A stretch of DNA of 64,000 nt from Flavivirga aquatica (GCF_001747085.1 NZ_MDJD01000014.1:1-64000); one strand, 5' to 3'; shown: positions 1 through 19,879, counted from the stretch's first letter. Made by a program: numbers and translations. The notes: generated from the sequence alone by a model not told the origin.

Positions 1-266
1 TTGGACCAATTAAGTTCAATCCAATATTTCTGACTTTATTGATTATTTTCTTGGCTTTGAATAAAGAACTGCTGAACAAAATGTTTCCTGAAAAAGAATT
101 GGCGGAAAATAATGCGGAAAACATAAAACTGATTAAACATTACGAGCAAAAATTCGAATCGAAAACCGAATCGGAATTGAAAAAAATTGCGGACGAAAAA
201 AGCGGATACGTGAACGAGGCGAAAATAGCTTCGAAAAACATTTTACGGAATAAATACGTGCTGTAA
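1..266 (+). CDS. C-terminal end of an unrecognised protein, cut by the window edge
   Basis: The reading frame is open from the first full codon in the window (position 3) to a TAA at 264-266, so the true start lies to the left. The first visible residues (about 17, with a run of Leu/Ile/Phe) look like the end of a membrane helix. A charged Lys/Glu-rich cytoplasmic-type tail follows and ends in NKYVL. No domain is recognised. The stop codon touches hairpin element A, the same layout as the other small genes in this part of the window, so this is probably the gene of the preceding cassette. A TTG at 39 would give a 75-residue product, but the open frame upstream argues for a partial gene. Confidence 0.6.
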   Translation, partial: GPIKFNPIFLTLLIIFLALNKELLNKMFPEKELAENNAENIKLIKHYEQKFESKTESELKKIADEKSGYVNEAKIASKNILRNKYVL

Positions 267-391
267 CACCGTGTATAATTAATGGCTAGTTCTCGCCTAC
301 TTACGAAAATCCTCGCGGATTTTCTATTCGGTTTTAATTTGCTAAATTAGGTGCGTAAACACGCCACTAATCATACACCATAACGTTGTGG
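265..391. repeat. Hairpin element A (attC-like cassette boundary)
   Basis: The left arm GTGTATAATTAATGGC (271-286) pairs with the right arm GCCACTAATCATACAC (363-378). There are 14 Watson-Crick pairs and two A-C mismatches at arm positions 7 and 12, which become T-G wobbles on the minus strand. The outer borders are AACACC on the left and AACGTTGTG on the right. The interior holds the palindrome AAAATCCTCGCGGATTTTC, shared almost exactly with elements B and E. It lies between two unrelated plus-strand genes. Confidence 0.75.
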
Positions 392-413: not shown

Positions 414-827
414 ATGACAAGAGACGAAGCCCAAGATGCGTGGGAAAGAATAGTTGAAATTGGATTTTCTAATTATGAAAAATTGACTCGTGAACAGCGA
501 GTTTGGTTTAACGTTGAACCTTTGACAACTGGCGGATTATGGGATCATTATATGAATTATGGTGCGGACAAAAACGCAGATACAATTGCGGATTTAGAAT
601 ATCTGAATTTTAATTCGGTAGCGAATCAATTACGTGAATTCAATAAAACCTTTTTGCCAAATGGTATTCCCGAAGGACCAGACGCTCGACAAGAGGAATT
701 TGACAAGTATGATGAAGACGAATTTGAAGATTACATTGAGGAAATGGACAATAAATTTTGGGAAGTATCAGACAAATTGGAAAACGCTCTAATGGAACAT
801 ATAAATAACAGCGGAATTGGAAAATAA
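414..827 (+). CDS. DUF4375/DMP19-like hypothetical protein
   Basis: This is a 137-residue soluble acidic protein with no signal peptide. Residues about 20-70 carry a pattern I associate with DUF4375 (DMP19-like) proteins: REQRVWFNVE, then TTGGLWDHYMNYGAD, then a DLEYLNF segment. The C-terminus is rich in Asp and Glu. The family has no established biochemical role. The gene starts 23 bases after element A and is followed within 7 bases by the next gene, so the two form a small operon in one cassette between elements A and B. The family call rests on memory of the motif pattern. Confidence 0.65.
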   Translation: MTRDEAQDAWERIVEIGFSNYEKLTREQRVWFNVEPLTTGGLWDHYMNYGADKNADTIADLEYLNFNSVANQLREFNKTFLPNGIPEGPDARQEEFDKYDEDEFEDYIEEMDNKFWEVSDKLENALMEHINNSGIGK

Positions 828-833
828 AACGCT

Positions 834-1358
834 GTGAATAAAGTAATAATCATTTTAATAACCTTTTTTGCAGTTAACTGTAGTCAAACCAAACAGAATA
901 AAATGACTGAATCCAAAAGCAAATTTGACACAGAAAAATTGACAGAATTTGCGATTAGTAAAATAACGGAATTTGCTAAAGAACATCCAAATGAAACATT
1001 TTATGGATTCTCAATTGACGCAAGCCTGTTATGCTTGAATTCGGAAGAAGAATTTCAAAAAACATTAAAATACTACCGTGAAAAATTTGGCGGATATGAA
1101 ACAGAAGAACAGATTACGGACTTAAGACAGAATACTGGAGACTGGGAATACCAAGGATTTGCGGAATTTGATAAAAATTCAGGATTTGATATGGAGGAAT
1201 ATAACGAACACTATCACGAAGATGAACAATTTCAACTGACTTCTGATTACGCAAAATCAATGGATTTAGTTGTTGAGAATTTGAAAAAAAGTGGAGTTTT
1301 TGATTTGTTAAAAAAGACCGATGATTTTTATGCAAACCAAGTTGAACATAATTATTAA
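834..1358 (+). CDS. Small lipoprotein, DUF4303-like
   Basis: This 174-residue protein starts at a GTG and begins with a lipoprotein signal (ITFFAVNCSQ, lipobox Cys at residue 16), so it is probably anchored in the cell envelope. The central segment FYGFSIDASLLCLNSEEEF resembles DUF4303 proteins; their function is not known to me. The rest is Glu/Asp/Tyr-rich. It follows the DUF4375-like gene after 6 bases and ends 19 bases before element B, so both genes form one cassette. A frame open on the opposite strand here has no recognisable product and is ignored. Confidence 0.65.
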   Translation: MNKVIIILITFFAVNCSQTKQNKMTESKSKFDTEKLTEFAISKITEFAKEHPNETFYGFSIDASLLCLNSEEEFQKTLKYYREKFGGYETEEQITDLRQNTGDWEYQGFAEFDKNSGFDMEEYNEHYHEDEQFQLTSDYAKSMDLVVENLKKSGVFDLLKKTDDFYANQVEHNY

Positions 1359-1377: not shown

Positions 1378-1508
1378 CACAACAATGGCTATAAGTAATT
1401 GCTTGGTCTCGCCTACTTCTGAAAATCCTCGCGGATTTTCAGTTTGGTGTGTACTTGCAAAGTTAAGAGCTAAACCACGCAACTACTCATAGCCGAGACC
1501 GTTGTAAG
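1378..1508. repeat. Hairpin element B (attC-like cassette boundary)
   Basis: The arms are GGCTATAAGTAATTGC (1387-1402) and GCAACTACTCATAGCC (1479-1494). They pair perfectly except for A-C at arm positions 7 and 12, the same places as in element A. The outer borders ACAACA and CGTTGTAAG are themselves complementary (ACAAC/GTTGT). The interior again contains GAAAATCC-TCGC-GGATTTTC. The next gene starts 20 bases past the right core. Confidence 0.78.
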
Positions 1509-1520
1509 TAATTGTACTAA

Positions 1521-2099
1521 ATGAAAAAAATCACTCACTTTATATATTTGACTTTAATTGGATTACTTTTATTTGGGTTCATCATAAAAAAAACTGACTG
1601 CCCCAAAATTGAAATCGTAGAAGCTGAAGAAGATTCAGAAATAGTTGTTCATTGGACTTTAGGTGTAGATTATTCTAAATTAACAGAAATAAAAGATAAT
1701 GACTTAAACAAGTTCGTTAAAAAGATTGAACAAATCGTATCTACTAACAACTGGAATGAATTCATTAATAATTGTGCTCCTGACCATTATGAAATCCAAT
1801 TTGAGGAATTAGATTTTTCTAAAAGTAGATATATTTTAAATAACTTAATGGTCTACTCCACATATAAGAAAAATTTAAAAATAATAAACCAACTACCTGA
1901 AATCGATAGCCAAGATGAATTCTATTCATTAAATTCTATTAAAAAAATGAGTATAATCGGAATCAATGAAGATGATAAATATGAAGGAATAATTTCTCTT
2001 TGTGGTTATTTAGAACTTAAAGATAATAACATAAAAGCTGTTAATATTTGGGTTACTAAACGTAATGGAAAATATGAAATTACAGGTGCTGTTGGGTAA
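1521..2099 (+). CDS. Exported hypothetical protein
   Basis: This 192-residue protein has one hydrophobic N-terminal segment (residues about 5-24, LTLIGLLLFGFII). There is no clear lipobox, so it is either membrane-anchored or secreted. The remainder is a mixed alpha/beta-looking domain that ends in a strand pattern (KAVNIWVTKRNGKYEITGAVG); an NTF2-like or immunity-type fold is possible but not shown. It is a lone plus-strand gene between elements B and C, ending 11 bases before element C. I do not recognise the family. Confidence 0.6.
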   Translation: MKKITHFIYLTLIGLLLFGFIIKKTDCPKIEIVEAEEDSEIVVHWTLGVDYSKLTEIKDNDLNKFVKKIEQIVSTNNWNEFINNCAPDHYEIQFEELDFSKSRYILNNLMVYSTYKKNLKIINQLPEIDSQDEFYSLNSIKKMSIIGINEDDKYEGIISLCGYLELKDNNIKAVNIWVTKRNGKYEITGAVG

Positions 2100-2109
2100 A
2101 AAACTACTT

Positions 2110-2299
2110 ACAACACGGTGTATAAAACATAGCTAATAAATGCTTAACCTAAGGTTTCTGTATATTTAGAATGTCCGCCAAATTTTTAATTTAGCTTTAA
2201 AAAAGAGAAAAATTAAAAACAAAATATAAAAATTCGGCTCTGTGTTAATCCGAAAAACTAGTGTCTTTTTACACGCTACATTTCATACACAAGACCGTC
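2110..2299. repeat. Hairpin element C (attC-like cassette boundary)
   Basis: The left arm GTGTATAAAACATAGC (2118-2133) faces GCTACATTTCATACAC (2275-2290). On the plus strand the mismatches are A-C at arm positions 7 and 12 and C-A at 11; all three become G-T wobbles on the minus strand. The left border is ACAACACG and the right border AAGACCGT. The interior differs from A and B: it contains CCGCCAAATTTTTAATTTAG and AAAAAGAGAAAAATTAAAA, shared with elements D and K. An IS1182-type inverted repeat begins directly at the right border. Confidence 0.72.
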
Positions 2300-2566
2300 A
2301 GACTGTCTAATAACTTATCCTATTTTCTTAGGTAAATATTTCGTTTTTTCGTATCTTAATGTTATGAAATTCATCCTAGGAAAAGACCGAAAACAGACCT
2401 GCCTTTTTCCTGTTTCTCTTGAAGATTCCATCGAACAAGAAAATAGCGTGAGGTCAATAGATCAATTTGTAGATTCACTTGACTTGAGCGAACTTGGTTT
2501 TCGTTCAGTTTTTACAGAAAATGGACCGCCTGCTTACAATCCATCTGTCTTACTAAAACTATACAA
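2299..2566 (+). mobile_element. IS1182-type element, left-end remnant with transposase N-terminus
   Basis: The terminal repeat CAGACTGTCTAATAACTTA begins at 2299, directly after the right border of element C. An ATG at 2364 opens a frame whose first ~67 residues (KFILGKDRKQTCLFPVSLED, then IDQFVDSLDLSELGF, then NPSVLLKLY) match the N-terminal region of IS1182-family transposases as I know them. The frame is then cut at about 2566, where group II intron sequence begins, and stops at 2597 in foreign sequence. The element is dead. Other parts of related copies occur at 9337-9628 and 19880-21119. Confidence 0.75.
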
Positions 2567-2839
2567 TAGCATACTACTCATAATACAAGAATGGTAGCGC
2601 CTTTTACCTTATCGCTCAAGACCAACCCGTGAAAAGCAAGCCCCATAAGGCGGTTTGACTGATATGCCTAACATCCCAGTCGAGAGACCAATTCTCATTT
2701 TCTTTTTCTTTGTGTGAGTCCTTCTTGATTTTCTTTATCAAGCTCGTTCCTGAAAAAAAATGAGCCTCTCATCTCAATTACAGTTTGTTGCTCATAATCT
2801 ATTTTACTAAATTGTTTCCCGAAGCAACGCAGGACACAC
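2566..2839 (-). mobile_element. Group II intron, 5' fragment (second copy)
   Basis: These 274 bases are a near-exact direct repeat of 5659-5932, the 5' end of the intact intron downstream, with only a few substitutions. On the minus strand the fragment begins with GTGTGTCCTGCG (at 2839) and contains part of domain I only; the reverse transcriptase and 3' domains are missing. The 5' end lies exactly 9 bases from the CAACA border of element D. The intact copy has the same spacing to element E. Confidence 0.82.
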
Positions 2840-2848
2840 TACGTTGCA

Positions 2849-3037
2849 CAACACTATATATAGCAAATAGGGCAATTAGTGTTTAATCAAAAGGTCTGTG
2901 TCTATTTGCAAAGTCGCCAAATCTTTTGATTTGGTATTAAAAGAGAAAAATTAAAACAAAATAAAAAGATTTGGCTTGTGGTTAAACCGAAAATAATCGC
3001 TTATTTTCTGCCCAACTTGCCATATATTTAACGTTAC
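2849..3037. repeat. Hairpin element D (attC-like cassette boundary)
   Basis: The arms are TATATAGCAAATAGGGCA (2857-2874) and TGCCCAACTTGCCATATA (3009-3026). They pair except for A-C at two positions spaced five apart (as in the other elements) and one A-A. The borders are CACAACACTA on the left and AACGTTACC on the right. The interior (CGCCAAATC, TTTGGTATTAAAAGAGAAAA, GATTTGGC) is of the same type as elements C and K. The next gene starts 15 bases beyond the right core. Confidence 0.74.
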
Positions 3038-3045
3038 CTACAATT

Positions 3046-3930
3046 ATGAAACCTCATTTAATTATTATCGTAATAGCTTCTATTTTTAGCAGTTGCAACA
3101 AATTTGAGCATAAGCTTTATGATAAAATTGATATTGCGCAAAAAAATGCGATCGAAAAAAATTCACCTGTAATATTTGACTTAAATGATGTTACCGATTT
3201 CGAATGGATTAAAATGCTTCATATAACAGGAAATGAAAGTATGCCAATCCATAACTTCGAAATTGAACCAACACTAGGTAGACAAACTAAAGATTTAAAA
3301 ACTTGGAAAAACAGGTTCTACTTTTTAAACTCAAAGAATGAGGTAATAGTAAAAGATATTGACTATCAACACTACCCTTCTTACAGTATTGAATTTTGCC
3401 TAAAAGACTCAATTAAAAATATTGGTTATCAATGGTTGAGTAAAGACGAATGTAAGTTTACATTAGTTCCGAATACCAAAAAAGCAGGAACAGGTATGGT
3501 TTTTTTATTCCCCGTATGCAATACTAAATTTGACAAGGATAATTTTGGCATATTTCGTAAACAAGACATTAAACTATCGATACCTAAAAATGTAGATTCT
3601 GACTTTAAAATATTTCTAAACTTTTTTAATAAAGATTCTACTTTTCAAATAAGTCGAGTAAAATTTCCATTAAAAATAAAAGACCTTAATGAGGATTTTG
3701 AACTCAGAGAAAGAACAATAAATAAAGAAGAGTATTATTTAAAAAAGTTTGATTTTAACGAAATCAATAAATTAGAGGTATTTAATGAGTATAAACAGAG
3801 AATCAGTATAAACGAAAATAATGTGCTGATTGAAATAAATGGAATTGAAAACGGAATCGCTTGTGAATTTTACTTCAAAAAAATAAACAACAAATGGAAA
3901 TTAGTAAGTTGGATAGACCAATCAACATAA
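3046..3930 (+). CDS. Putative lipoprotein of unknown function
   Basis: This 294-residue protein starts with MKPHLIIIVIASIFSSC, a short signal ending in a lipobox Cys at residue 17, so it is probably an envelope lipoprotein. The body is rich in Lys, Asn, Phe and Asp, with several beta-strand-like stretches and no recognised domain. The stop codon is at 3928-3930. The 3' end of an antisense group II intron lies 2 bases later, and element E follows the intron. Gene, intron and hairpin therefore form one cassette-like unit. Confidence 0.65.
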   Translation: MKPHLIIIVIASIFSSCNKFEHKLYDKIDIAQKNAIEKNSPVIFDLNDVTDFEWIKMLHITGNESMPIHNFEIEPTLGRQTKDLKTWKNRFYFLNSKNEVIVKDIDYQHYPSYSIEFCLKDSIKNIGYQWLSKDECKFTLVPNTKKAGTGMVFLFPVCNTKFDKDNFGIFRKQDIKLSIPKNVDSDFKIFLNFFNKDSTFQISRVKFPLKIKDLNEDFELRERTINKEEYYLKKFDFNEINKLEVFNEYKQRISINENNVLIEINGIENGIACEFYFKKINNKWKLVSWIDQST

Positions 3931-3973
3931 AAGTCGAGTAGGTAAAGGGGAATCTCACCCCTAAACCTCTCAC

Positions 3974-4008
3974 AGAACCGTACGTGATAGTCTCCCATCA
4001 TACGGCTC
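3974..4008 (-). other. Group II intron catalytic domain V
   Basis: On the minus strand, GAGCCGTATGATGGGAGAC, a short turn and GTACGGTTCTG fold into the conserved ~34-nt hairpin that forms the ribozyme active site. A domain VI-like hairpin (GGGGTGAGATTCCCC) follows towards 3933. The same signature in altered form marks intron remnants at 19712-19791 and 22079-22155. Confidence 0.85.
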
Positions 4009-4024
4009 TTCTTAACAAGTCAAG

Positions 4025-5284
4025 TCAAGGTGTAAATCCATATTGCCAATGTACAAACATATTTGGGTACTGCTTAGCAGTTTCCTGTAACCATTTGTAA
4101 GCTGCAAACCAATGTTTACGCCTAAATCTCCGATATTTGTTGCGTACCCATTTTGCAAGTCGCTTATTCAGGAAACGGAACACATAATGTAATTCACTCA
4201 TTCTAACTTTACCGTAATAATGAATCCAACCCCGTACTTTATCTGCTACAATGCCTGCCAAATCTAACAGGCGTAAGTGAACCATACGATGGAGTTTCAT
4301 CTTAAACAAGGTTTGATTGATACGTTTCTGACTCGTACGACTAATAGATGGTGTAAAACCCAAATGAAAATTACCAAAGTAACCCTTTACCATTCGTGGC
4401 TTAAATGTAAATCCTAGAAAATCGAATGTTACATAATGAACCTTAAATGGGGGATGCTTCTTTTGGTTGCGTTTGCAATAAACGATATTGCTTTTACCCG
4501 ATTTTATCTCCAATTTACATTGGAATAATCGAGCTTTTACCGCTTCCAAAGTCCGCAGGGCTTGTTTGAAATTATCGCAATGAATAATAATATCATCTGC
4601 ATAACGCTCAAACTTTACTTCGGGATGGTGCGTTTCTATCCAACTATCAAAAACTATATGCAGGAAGATGTTTGCCAGTAATGGACTGATTACTCCTCCC
4701 TGTGGGGTGCCTTTGATTCGTGGATGTATTGTGCCATCTTTCTTCTGGACTGATGCTTCCAACCAACGTTTTACATACAAGTGAATGTGCTTCTTCTTGG
4801 TAAAATGACCTAATGCCTGAAGCATCAATGTGTGGTCTATATCATCAAAAAAACTCTTGATGTCCAAATCAATTGCCCAATCCATCTCCATACAGTTTTT
4901 CCTGCATTGTTTAATGGCATGATGCGATGATTTACCTGGACGATAACCAAAGGAATTTTTACTAAATTGTTTATCCACAATCTGTTCTAATTCCTCTCGA
5001 ATTACCATTTGAGCCGTTCGGTCTTGCACCGTTGGAATACCTAGCTTCCTTATACGACCATCTGTTTTGGGTATCTCTACCTCGCGTACAGGTTTTGGAA
5101 AATAACTACCACTTGCCAATCTATTCCATACAGGATACAAATATTTAATAGGGCGTGATTGCACTTCTCTAATTGATAAATCATCAACTCCTGATCCGCC
5201 TTTGTTACTGCGTACCTTTTTAAAGGCTTCCATTACCTGTCGCTTTGATATCGGTTGCGACTTTTGTTTCTCCTTGAAAATCAT
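4025..5284 (-). CDS. ltrA-like: Group II intron reverse transcriptase/maturase
   Basis: This 419-residue protein would splice its own intron RNA and reverse-transcribe it at a DNA target. The polymerase motifs are in order: KNSFGYRPGKSSHHA (about 110-122), catalytic Asp in LDIKSFFDDID (about 140-150), GTPQGGVISPLLANIF (192-207), and YADD (228-231). A basic maturase (X) domain fills the C-terminus and ends in WQYGFTP. No HNH/En domain follows, as in group IIC enzymes that rely on hairpin targets. The start ATG is in the intron interior, with about 650 bases of structured 5' RNA before it. It appears intact and could be active. Confidence 0.92.
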   Translation of the reverse strand: MIFKEKQKSQPISKRQVMEAFKKVRSNKGGSGVDDLSIREVQSRPIKYLYPVWNRLASGSYFPKPVREVEIPKTDGRIRKLGIPTVQDRTAQMVIREELEQIVDKQFSKNSFGYRPGKSSHHAIKQCRKNCMEMDWAIDLDIKSFFDDIDHTLMLQALGHFTKKKHIHLYVKRWLEASVQKKDGTIHPRIKGTPQGGVISPLLANIFLHIVFDSWIETHHPEVKFERYADDIIIHCDNFKQALRTLEAVKARLFQCKLEIKSGKSNIVYCKRNQKKHPPFKVHYVTFDFLGFTFKPRMVKGYFGNFHLGFTPSISRTSQKRINQTLFKMKLHRMVHLRLLDLAGIVADKVRGWIHYYGKVRMSELHYVFRFLNKRLAKWVRNKYRRFRRKHWFAAYKWLQETAKQYPNMFVHWQYGFTP

Positions 5285-5941
5285 CCTAAAAAAAAAATCT
5301 TAGTTGTAATACAAATTAAAACTGTTAAGTCAGCCCCTTCGCTCCATATCCATTACAAATACTTCTTCACTACTACGGGCTAATCCGCCACTAAATAATA
5401 GTATCGCTACTTTCTTCCTTGCCCTTCGGGGTTATGGAATTTTTGCACTATTATTTAGCTTCTCCTGTTCCGTAATTGAGCCATCTAGTAAACCTCCTGC
5501 CCTCTTTATGCCGATTGCCACTTGACCAATACATAGGTTACTCCCGTCAAGTTCTCTCTCGCAAGACCGCCCATCCCTCGATTTTGACAATACTAAAGTT
5601 GTTTACGACACTTCTACAAGGGTTAAATCTCTTCTCTTTCAGCTTCTTTACTCCCACCATAGCATACTACTCATAATACAAGAATGGTAGCGCCTTTTAC
5701 CTTATCGCTCAAGACCAACCCGTGAAAAGCAAGCCCCATAAGGCCGTTTGACTGATATGCCTAACATCCCAGTCGAGAGACCAATTCTCATTTTCTTTTT
5801 CTTTGCGTGAGTCCTTCTTGATTTTCTTTATCAAGCTCGTTCCTGAAAAAAAATGAGCCTCTCATCTCAATTACAGTTTGTTGCTCATAATCTATTTTAC
5901 TAAATTGTTTCCCGAAGCAACGCAGGACACACAACTATGCC

Positions 5942-6072
5942 CAACAAAGACGTGTATAATTAATGGCTGGTTCTCGCCTACTTACGAAAATCCTCGCGGA
6001 TTTTCTATTCGGTTTTTATTTGCTAACTTTAGTGCTTAAAACACGCAACTAATCATACACAACATCGTTAGC
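5942..6072. repeat. Hairpin element E (attC-like cassette boundary)
   Basis: The arms are GTGTATAATTAATGGC (5952-5967) and GCAACTAATCATACAC (6045-6060). A-C mismatches occur at arm positions 7 and 12, plus one G-A at 14. The left arm is identical to that of element A, and the interior palindrome AAAATCCTCGCGGATTTTC is identical too. The borders are CAACAAAG on the left and CATCGTTAGC on the right. The intact group II intron abuts its left side. Confidence 0.77.
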
Positions 6073-6569: not shown

Positions 6570-7718
6570 TTAATTTTTATATTTCTGTATTTTACGTGTT
6601 GCTATTTTTTTGTAATCAAATGGCGGTCCACGACTATCAAAAGTTAGTAAGGTGATTAAAATCCCTTTTTTACAATGTCTACAACGTCGATGTAACGAGG
6701 TCTCTTGATGAGTTAATACAGCTGTCGTTTCTAGATCTTTATCTAATAATTGGAGTTGTAGTCTTGGTAATTTTTCCTTTTTCCAGCTGCTACTTAAAAA
6801 TCCGTAATGCCGAATTCTTGTAAATCCTTTAGGTAGAATATGATTTTGAAAACGTTTAATAAAGTTCTGTGTAGATAAGGTTTGTGTTGTTTTCTCACCT
6901 TGATTACGGTAATTTTTTAAACTAAATGTTACGGTTCTATTAGTGGTATCTATGTTTAATATTCTATGATTACTAATCGCTATTTTATGTGTGTAGCGTC
7001 CTAAATATTCAATAACATGTTCAGGTTTACCAAAAGGAGCTTTGGCATAAACCACCCATTTCTTAGAAAATAATTTATCATACAATGCCTGCGGAATTCC
7101 AGGGAGTTGCTTTCTTAGTTTAGAGACAAAAAGGCCTCTGAACTTTTTACTTAAAGCCTTCACACTAAAAAGAAAATGGTCTTTGCCTTTTGCCTTTTTC
7201 CAATACCCTGATTTAGTAACACCTCCTTTGGACACAATGCAATGCAGGTGAGGATGTAGACTTAAATTTTGTCCCCAAGTATGTAAGACGGCAATCATAC
7301 CCATTTTTGCTCCTAAGTGCTTGGGATTCTTAGCAAAACAGCAAAGCGTCTGCCAAACAGAATCAAATAAAATATTATAGAGCGTTTTTGCATCTGCAAG
7401 TGCTATGCTATTAAGATGATCTGGTAAGGTAAAAACTACATGAAAATAAGGAACAGGCAATAACTCTTGTCTTCTTGCAGCTATCCATTGCTGTTGTTTA
7501 TGACCTTGACAGGTTGGGCAATGTCTATTTCTACATGAATTAAATTGAAGCTGTAGTTTTCCACAAGTTCTACACCAATCTAAATGTCCGCCAAGGGCTT
7601 GGGTTCTGCATTTTCTAATAGCATGTAGTGCCCTTAAATGCCAACTCGTATTGGCTAAGTCTTTTAGGTCTAATACTTCTAGATTTAGCACCTCTGCAAC
7701 CGTATGTTTAGCAAGCAT
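6570..7718 (-). CDS. IS91-family rolling-circle transposase
   Basis: This 382-residue HUH-type transposase cleaves and rejoins single-stranded DNA. An N-terminal zinc-ribbon region carries Cys pairs (CRTC at 49-52, CRNRHCPTC at 62-70). The HUH metal-binding motif HPHLH is at 155-159. The segment VIEYLGRYTHKIAISNHRI provides the candidate nucleophile tyrosines Y238 and Y242. The start codon overlaps the stop of the upstream recombinase pseudogene (TAATG), so the two were translationally coupled, as in flavobacterial IS91-like units that pair an integrase with this transposase. The frame is intact. About 215 bases with no gene lie between its stop and hairpin F. Confidence 0.9.
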   Translation of the reverse strand: MLAKHTVAEVLNLEVLDLKDLANTSWHLRALHAIRKCRTQALGGHLDWCRTCGKLQLQFNSCRNRHCPTCQGHKQQQWIAARRQELLPVPYFHVVFTLPDHLNSIALADAKTLYNILFDSVWQTLCCFAKNPKHLGAKMGMIAVLHTWGQNLSLHPHLHCIVSKGGVTKSGYWKKAKGKDHFLFSVKALSKKFRGLFVSKLRKQLPGIPQALYDKLFSKKWVVYAKAPFGKPEHVIEYLGRYTHKIAISNHRILNIDTTNRTVTFSLKNYRNQGEKTTQTLSTQNFIKRFQNHILPKGFTRIRHYGFLSSSWKKEKLPRLQLQLLDKDLETTAVLTHQETSLHRRCRHCKKGILITLLTFDSRGPPFDYKKIATRKIQKYKN

Positions 7719-8627
7719 TATTTAGAAAACAAGGTATCTAAAGGACTGAACTTTATAGAGCTCCCAGTATGGGCAACATGCAGATAGATTATCGTGGTTT
7801 CTATATGTGCATGCCCTAAAAGTTCTTTTAAACTCATGATATTCAAACCTGCTTCTAGTAAATGGGTGGCATAACTATGACGTAAGGTATGGGCTGTAAA
7901 CTTCTTTTGGGTATTTACTTTTGAGCGGCTTTCTTTTATAAGCCATTGGATGGCTCTAACCGTAATAGGCTGCGCGGTACCAGCTTTTGTAACTTGGTTG
8001 TTAAAAAGATAGCGTATTGGTTTTTCTGTTTCTAAGTAAAGCTTGAGACCTCTAATAAGATGCTTGCTTAAGGGGAGGTAACGGTCTGTTTTTCCTTTTT
8101 GCTTCTTTATAAATACTGTTTTTCGTTCAAAATCGACATCAGATTGTAATAAATTGCAGAGTTCATAGCTTCGGAGTCCGCAGCCATATAACAGTCCAAG
8201 GATCAAGCGATGTTTTAAGAATTTTGGTGCTTTTAATAACGCTAGGGTTTATTGCTTATTAAGTACTATGGGAAGATCTTTTTGTCTGCGAATTTGGGGG
8301 AGTTGGATCCGTTTTTGTTCCATGCCCATAACCTTGTATCCTGCACGTAAACCAAAAATAGTATGTTTAAAAAAACTTTCTGAGGGTGTTTTATGATGGT
8401 TTTGGCAATGAAAAAGGTAGTCGTTTATAGCTTCTATACCCAATAACTCTGGACTTGTATTACTATGAATGGATAAATGAGATAAGCAGCGTAAATAATT
8501 AGTTAACGTACTTGTTGATTTACCGTTTATGGAGAAACTTAGGGTGAGTTTCTCAACTAATATTGCGAATTTTGGAACACGAACTAAAGCCGTTTCTAGG
8601 ATCGTCTTTTGTTTTTTTTTGATACAT
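7718..8627 (-). pseudogene. Tyrosine recombinase/integrase accompanying the IS91-like transposase, two lesions
   Basis: The catalytic half (7718-8206) has GLRSYELCNL (first catalytic Arg), HTLRHSYATHLLEAG and LGHAHIETTIIYLHV (His-X-X-Arg, His and nucleophile Tyr). The N-terminal SAM-like half is readable upstream to about 8625 in the same frame. The two halves are split by an in-frame TAA at 8249-8251, after PIVLNKQ. A single-base slip in a nine-A tract at 8612-8620 separates the ATG at 8625-8627 from the frame. It lacks the extra domain I would expect in integron integrases, so it is not IntI. It probably belongs to the same mobile unit as the transposase. Confidence 0.82.
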
Positions 8628-8708
8628 AATTTTTAAATTTTTATTTAGTACCTAAATTTAAACTATTTTTATATGCACTGGTTAGCTTCAGAGGCACGAG
8701 GATTAGTT

Positions 8709-8835
8709 CAACACGGTATAAAAATAATTGCTGTTTTAGGCTTAAACAAAGGTAGTTGCTCTTTTGCTACGTCTGATTTTCCTTCGGAAAATCCTCGCTC
8801 ACAAACCCGCAACTATTCTTATACTAACCGTTGTA
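8709..8835. repeat. Hairpin element G (attC-like cassette boundary)
   Basis: The arms are GTATAAAAATAATTGC (8716-8731) and GCAACTATTCTTATAC (8809-8824). They pair perfectly except A-C at arm positions 7 and 12, again G-T wobbles on the minus strand. The borders are CAACACG on the left and AACCGTTGT on the right. The interior carries GATTTTCC-TTC-GGAAAATC in place of the palindrome of A, B and E. Confidence 0.75.
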
Positions 8836-13214: not shown

Positions 13215-13948
13215 TGATTTGCTAATCCAAGTAGACGGGAGTTTCCCTTGCCTTTTGGAATACTTACTCCTAAGATTGGTGATAGTATGTAGCTATGGTC
13301 ATGGATTCATTCCTGAGAGTATGGTCACTCGGTGTTCTCTGATATAATCACAGAGTTCCGTGGTTTTCATACCATCGATACCACTTGATCCTTTATTTTT
13401 AAGCACATCTCGTGCTGCTTTATCTAGGCTTCCTGAGGCTAATACTTTTGCAATCATAGGTATTAATAATTTGTAATCTCCTGTTGGTTTAAGAAAAGGC
13501 TTGCTTTGCATCCTAGTCGAATTCCAACCTAATTTAATGTTCGGTCCTTCCCTACTCGTGAGACCTCTATGCTTTTCAAAGCTCATTTCCCATAGGTAAT
13601 ATGACTTCTGCTGACTTCTCTACATAACCAACTCGTGGTTGTAAAGATCTCCCCAGGTAATGGCATCTTCTTTCTCTCAATAACTACCTATCTACATATT
13701 TACCTTTTTTCTTTCTCGTGGGGAGTTACAATGATGTGCTTGCTTACCCAAGTAAATATGCCTCTGTATACGGTTTCTGTTCGTCAGTACCGAGTTTTGT
13801 AGTCTCGCTTCCTTCAAATGTAACCTCACGGTTACCACCCTTGCGACTTACTAATGCTTCAAGACTTTACTCCTGCGTATAAGTGACTTGCACCCTATAG
13901 ATTAATTTTTTACCTTTTAGTAAAAAAGATGTCCCATGCTGGACACAC
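13215..13948 (-). mobile_element. Group II intron remnant, different type, with reverse transcriptase N-terminus
   Basis: On the minus strand the intron starts GTGTGTCCAGCATGGGACATC-like at about 13948, followed by ~360 bases of domain I sequence. A reverse transcriptase frame follows (13586-13312; NKGSSGIDGMKTTELCDYI). After a frameshift, VSIPKGKGNSRLLGL is readable to about 13222, where the remnant stops next to the stop codon of the LRR gene. The catalytic half and 3' end are gone. Its 5' end abuts element K, so gene, antisense intron and hairpin are in the same order as at 3046-6072. Confidence 0.78.
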
Positions 13949-19791: not shown

Positions 19792-19879
19792 TTATGTATC
19801 ACTGTCTCCAGATCACAATACCATTAATAATTTTAGAAAGAATAATACAAAAACCATCAAAAAAGTGTGTTATGTAACG

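Follow-up and report, generated by a model that had tools for sequence, protein, structure and literature searches.

A 64,000-nucleotide stretch of the Flavivirga aquatica genome (GCF_001747085.1, NZ_MDJD01000014.1:1-64000; hereafter the window, with positions counted from its first letter) carries two copies of a group II intron, each placed beside a different member of a family of folded elements that resemble the attC sites of integrons. We consider it likely that these copies represent an endonuclease-less, class D-like mobile intron (IIB, related to RmInt1) that has become a specialist for the attC-like sites of an integron-like system of gene cassettes in Bacteroidota.

Copy 1 is a full-length intron of 2000 nt on the minus strand (3933..5932), running from its 5′ end GTGTGTCC at 5932 to its 3′ end CTACTCGAC at 3933, and these limits were set by homologous copies and by an empty IS1595 site. 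The Rfam models RF00029 (domains D5/D6) and RF01999 (domain D1) match it, the former at 3933-4010. It encodes a 419-aa reverse transcriptase/maturase (4025..5284, minus strand) with RVT_1 and GIIM domains, over the cut-off of both Pfam and TIGR04416, in which a Pfam/TIGR04416 profile search found no endonuclease domain; about 740 nt of the intron lie outside this open reading frame (ORF). Copy 2 retains the 5′ part only (2566..2839, minus strand) and is joined at 2566 to IS1182 debris (an N-terminal transposase fragment, 2364..2582, plus strand; NF033551 E=9e-13).

The minus-strand intron start GGACACAC (longer read GTGTGTCCTG) ends at both 5932 and 2839. Past the intron, the plus strand continues with AACTATGCC after 5932 and TACGTTGCA after 2839, and then with CAACA at 5942 (element E) and 2849 (element D), so that the minus-strand 5′ exons read TGTTG-GGCATAGTT before copy 1 and TGTTG-TGCAACGTA before copy 2. 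This direct reading bears out the initial annotation, which had placed both copies 9 bases from the CAACA of two different elements. Its statement that the 9 flanking bases differ holds in that they are not identical; they are not unrelated either, as -AC--TGC- is common to both and the arm ends are conserved. The nine bases make up the element's outer arm, with a cassette-specific middle and conserved ends, because the intron enters right after GYT; in element E this arm (5933..5941, minus strand) is the 5′ exon of copy 1 and would supply the end of its intron-binding site 1 (IBS1).

Insertion sites of related introns

For 32 intron 5′ ends, the insertion site was read in the preceding 220 bases. 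Six of these ends belong to the Flavivirga genome and the others to Aquimarina, Nonlabens, Polaribacter, Cellulophaga, Psychroflexus, Salinimicrobium, Alkaliflexus and other genomes of the class, with metagenome-assembled genomes of Saprospiraceae and Chlorobiota also taken in. An attC-like element adjoined 28 of the 32 ends, two further ends lay at damaged or minimal elements, and two lay elsewhere; wider pattern and reverse-transcriptase scans of the class and phylum yielded few extra copies. On the intron strand all 28 element sites followed one architecture: YAACG, 3–6 unpaired bases, a stem with a variable loop, 0–4 bases, TGTTR (TGTCA in one site and TCTTA in another), a gap, and the intron. 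The initial annotation had proposed checking the relatives for an element at constant distance, with most of them lying at ordinary terminators as the contrary outcome. The elements were there, and the distance varied: the gap was 9–11 bases (12 in L014), which rules out a strict 9-base rule. Insertions at elements were always on the same strand and the same side, antisense to the cassette genes, as had been claimed for the window copies.

The sites that depart from this architecture kept part of the target. In L010 an IS110-type transposase end (L010:1-834) replaces the hairpin beside the intron and TTTGTTGG is kept, an interrupted element reminiscent of IS1111-attC elements, and in L020 only the outer arms of the element remain. 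Two insertions have no hairpin: L006 interrupts the transposase gene of an IS1595 element, and L037 lies at cas2. Both keep TGTTA, ending in GCT or GTT. In L037 (G047:C18:156174) the intron lies antisense at the very start of the cas2-like gene. Minimal sites of the form GTGCAACGGTTAC...TGTTG, with outer arms and no long stem, were seen near 2330-2356 of L020, at the intron, and near 5300 of L054, at an IS91 end.

The Flavivirga genome contains five long intron copies that are 99.6–100% identical over the 1.77 kb compared, indicating recent intron activity, and one truncated copy; five of these six copies lie at elements. The third copy (C34:146052) interrupts an IS1595 gene whose joined flanks were found intact 16 times in the same genome at 99–100% identity, and the ends of the intron are therefore certain.

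Intron class and proposed pairing with the target

The reverse transcriptase shares 41% identity over 403 residues (333 bits) with an RmInt1-like class D protein of Sinorhizobium; its identity to plasmid homologues presumed to belong to class C is ~29–33% (164–178 bits), and its score against GsI-IIC is 160 bits. The setting of the Sinorhizobium protein (L105), within an IS630-like gene, led us to identify it as RmInt1, in line with the published description (PMC5894124). By similarity and one alignment the intron protein resembles class D/IIB and not group IIC; an endonuclease-less, RmInt1-related protein is what characterises the former, and the protein expected of class C was not found. An assignment to group IIC from a PDB search, in which GsI-IIC was the best match, was overturned by this wider protein comparison, and the parallel with group IIC-attC introns drawn in the initial annotation does not extend to the intron class.

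Domain D1 aligned with that of RmInt1, in which the segments pairing with IBS1 and IBS2 were deduced in this analysis from the RmInt1 sequence. GGCGGU fell on the IBS1-pairing segment and AACAAC on the segment that faces the RmInt1 IBS2 at −13 to −9, pointing to candidate exon-binding sites (EBS) 1 and 2. The candidate EBS1, GGCGGU (5566..5571, minus strand; intron positions 362-367), was also, independently of the alignment, the best-pairing 6-mer to IBS1 over 26 sites, with offset 0 the best of 25. The candidate EBS2, AAACAAC (5598..5604, minus strand; positions 329-335), would face GTTG of the element. A search of D1 for complementarity to target bases further upstream (offsets 6–10) gave no clear candidate, its scores staying below those for IBS1, and EBS2 was taken from the alignment.

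Unoccupied elements (n=49) read TGTT-R-N6-G-T-T-T-tract, with G in 41, the first T in 36 and the second in 28 of the 49, and the intron enters exactly after the GYT of the element (TGTTR-N6-GYT|T). The GTTR lies at −13 to −10 from the intron, and the alignment to RmInt1 suggests that GTTR serves as IBS2 and GYT as the end of IBS1. Given the D1 alignment and the EBS1 pairing, the insertion spacing would reflect the ordinary IBS2–IBS1 geometry of a IIB intron fitting the arm. We infer that base pairing fixes the insertion position and that the folded element adds a preference without being essential. The proposal that the hairpin, and not a shared sequence, sets the position is not supported: the conserved arm ends fit IBS2 and IBS1, and TGTTA...GYT persists at the two hairpin-less sites, where its presence also shows that TGTTR does not mark the hairpin alone.

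In the process that we envisage, the intron ribonucleoprotein would pair EBS2 (AACAAC) with GTTR and EBS1 (GGCGGU) with the GYT end, and the intron would then reverse-splice into the bottom strand, probably when that strand is single-stranded or folded. Since its protein has no endonuclease domain, a host primer is proposed for reverse transcription of the intron.

The proposed cassette system and its recombinase

In an integron, the first T of one R′ opens a cassette and the G of the next R′ closes it, and only the circular form has a complete attC (PMC2674596). The opening bases of a cassette are thus expected to match its own far-end arm and not that of its neighbour. We compared the bases after CGTT with the bottom-strand bases that follow TGTT at that cassette's opposite end, and found at least five contiguous cassette-specific matches in 28 of 41 consecutive pairs. 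The mean matching run was 4.95, against 1.25 for shuffled partners (maximum 2.12 in 2000 shuffles), and it was 1.14 between the two sides of one element. The match usually continued through an A at the start and a G at the end with the same two bases after it, so that the arm measures ~13 nt. Further arrays likewise carried complementary R′ and R″ within one cassette, the complementarity that attC requires. Cutting of the cassette would take place at G^TT.

On C50 an array lies behind the gene of a 380-aa tyrosine recombinase (C50:40729-41868), giving the combination of a recombinase gene beside a cassette array by which integrons are recognised. Full-length or near full-length homologues of this recombinase were present in 13 of the 15 intron-bearing genomes searched, Flavivirga included, and at most such loci with enough downstream sequence the array followed directly and in the same orientation. 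Of 119 genomes of the class sampled regardless of introns, 61 also contained a relative at E<=1e-55, some of these relatives lacking the N-terminal extension described below; 8 of 20 recombinase loci fetched blind to introns had downstream elements, and many others stop at a contig edge. No relatives were found in IMG/VR. In ten loci the array opened with an attI-like start, namely GTT and the first cassette's own arm sequence 44–190 nt behind the recombinase gene, which we take to be a putative attI site at the first cassette. The co-oriented arrays behind a tyrosine recombinase, this start and the matching cassette ends strongly support the earlier view of the elements as attC-like. Like IntI acting on attC, the recombinase would excise and insert cassettes at G^TT by folding the element's bottom strand. 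In L081, L085, L086 and L108 a short palindrome precedes the attI-like start (e.g. ATAAACTCCC-TATG-GGGAGTTTAT), and it is absent at others.

The catalytic residues R-K-H-R-H-Y are conserved in at least 93% of 30 recombinase homologues. The protein was not recognised as IntI (TIGR02249 pieces of 128 and 88 bits against a cut-off of 265), and the IntI-specific (alpha-I2) insertion is absent, with ~12 residues in the place of the ~52 of IntI4; it resembles XerA. An N-terminal extension of ~110 residues (L052:10730-11060), common to many homologues, had no Pfam match.

In the window, attC-like elements lie on the plus strand at 264..387 (stem 16/16; covariance model E=1e-22), 1380..1503 (stem 16/16; model match), 2111..2299 (altered right end, CGTC for CGTT; model match C14:2102-2298), 2849..3035 (element D; stem 15/16; C14:2840-3038), 5942..6069 (element E; stem 15/16; C14:5933-6072; the minus, or bottom, strand folds and is the target strand) and 8709..8832 (stem 16/16; model match), all oriented like the small genes between them. 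A stem score of 15/16 was reached 0–1 times per window in Markov-shuffled windows, and the covariance model recovered 26 elements genome-wide, mostly clustered on C14, C50 and C54. Most stems pair 15–16 of 16 positions without gaps and so have no extrahelical bases, the feature of attC that IntI reads (PMC3053210). The cassette genes, all on the plus strand, are a DMP19-like gene (414..827; PF14300), a DUF4303 gene (834..1358; PF14136), an ORF with no function assigned (1521..2099) and a DUF4348 gene (3046..3930; PF14254). Matching cassette-specific ends bound cassette 388-1379 (GTTGTGGTGC / GTTGTGGTGT, six contiguous matches) and cassette 1504-2110 (GTAAGTAATT / GTAAGTAGTT).

Direct evidence that an intron sits in an intact cassette could be had at few loci. 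Matching cassette ends are present around the intron-bearing cassette of Salinimicrobium, and a downstream end match indicating an intact cassette was obtained in 6 of 25 loci tested, with a chance rate of 14%; of these six, L003, L012 and L017 run on into the element arm.

Competing explanations and known systems

That sequence alone decides, with TGTTR-N6-GYT sought anywhere and the elements acting as neutral carriers of the motif, is an explanation to which we give limited credence; it accounts for the motif at hairpin-less sites and for the alignment of the EBS segments to RmInt1. Against it, 186 kb of this genome, a sample picked around arrays and so array-enriched, contain 51 occurrences of the motif, 9 at elements and 15 elsewhere outside ORFs, yet the own-genome copies are concentrated at elements, and of 17 matching IS1595 targets just one carries an intron. 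Because the motif is so often found outside elements, sequence alone appears insufficient, and an extra preference probably comes from folding, single-strandedness or the T-tract. A true group IIC-attC intron, without IBS2 and positioned by the folded hairpin alone, is unlikely, even if nearly all insertions are at hairpins, the protein has no endonuclease domain and this is the published integron-associated kind: the reverse transcriptase scores, the length outside the ORF and the D1 alignment with both candidate EBS segments side with RmInt1, two insertions have no hairpin, and the present insertions lie outside R″, unlike those of IIC-attC introns, which enter R″ itself at TTGT/T (PMC7923331). 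We regard as very improbable a third account, in which the elements are ordinary intergenic repeats (like repetitive extragenic palindromes) or terminators and the targeting is unrelated to cassettes. The elements are indeed intergenic hairpins whose recombination is deduced from comparison, but such repeats would not be expected in recombinase-linked, co-oriented arrays with an attI-like start, or with cassette-specific end matches that are not common to the two sides of one element.

Several observations weigh against an RmInt1-related intron specialised on attC-like sites. The case is comparative throughout, with recombination, splicing and retrohoming read from sequence, and the class assignment rests on similarity and one alignment. 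The score of EBS1 is only modestly above position-permuted controls, 2 of 60 of which reach it, and the EBS2 pairing is short (3–4 bp) and fails at the own-genome copy C34:227736, which has TCTTA and not TGTTR. Four Alkaliflexus copies are not independent, as their common flank, GAACTAAATCC, is an IS91-type end; counting all the Alkaliflexus copies as separate insertions is thereby ruled out. Finally, the flanks of copy 1 lack matching cassette ends (GTTACCTAC vs GTTGGGCAT), so that a rearrangement of the window locus probably followed the insertion, perhaps by recombination between intron copies, for example with the truncated one 3 kb away.

The intron resembles group IIC-attC introns (PMC7923331) in lacking an endonuclease and in lying in the bottom strand of attC antisense to cassettes, and differs in its class D-like reverse transcriptase, its position at the outer end of the R arm and its putative EBS2/IBS2 geometry. 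With RmInt1 of Sinorhizobium meliloti (class D, IIB3; PMC5894124) it shares the endonuclease-less protein and an alignable D1, in which the candidate EBS1 and EBS2 segments occupy equal places; RmInt1 homes to an IS630-type element, and the present intron to attC-like elements. IIB introns near halophile integrons and clusters of attC sites lacking an integrase (CALINs) also lie among attC arrays, and a role of the upstream fold was suggested there (PMC7923331), but those cases are few or truncated and the complete one had no reported exon conservation, compared with 32 5′ ends under one rule here.

Classical integrons share with the present system the recombinase, the attI-like start, the cassette array, the matching cassette ends, the AAC/GTT core and the bottom-strand hairpin with an R arm, an asymmetric unpaired spacer and an L arm. 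They differ from it in that the recombinase here is XerA-like, without the IntI insertion and with the N-terminal extension, its gene is co-oriented with the array, the R arm is ~13 nt and not GTTRRRY, and the L stem has 15–16 bp without extrahelical bases in the scored stretch. The system thus appears to work like an integron and to stand outside the classical family on two points, the recombinase and the extrahelical bases. Integrons are reported to be rare in Bacteroidetes, where IntegronFinder 2.0 contributed a single complete integron, from Salinibacter ruber, beyond the In0 elements known before (PMC9024848). We lean towards the view that about half of Bacteroidota genomes carry a second kind of integron, with a XerA-like recombinase and longer attC-like sites without extrahelical bases, to which a class D intron and IS91-type and IS110-type elements have adapted. 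A literature search, with preprints and most subscription papers outside its scope, found no earlier description of such a system. If this view is right, a widespread platform with a different recombinase would explain the shuffling of many small unknown genes, and folded-strand cassette capture would be possible without the IntI-specific insertion; the TGTTR-N6-GYT|T rule would serve as a marker for such sites, and the intron as a natural test of a class D intron directed by sequence and fold.

An IS91-type transposon with a tyrosine recombinase occupies 6570-8640 (minus strand) and 8700-8712 of the window, and its end GGATTAGTTC adjoins the TGTTG (CAAC on the plus strand) of the element at 8709..8832. 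A second own-genome copy (G000:C14 about 169490-170300, L054) and Alkaliflexus L028 adjoin elements likewise, and in both own-genome copies the recombinase frame is interrupted by an in-frame TAA. The window also contains a second, different group II intron region at 13544-13835 (minus strand; RF02001 and RF01998 matches) and a D5-like sequence near 19830-19871 (minus strand).

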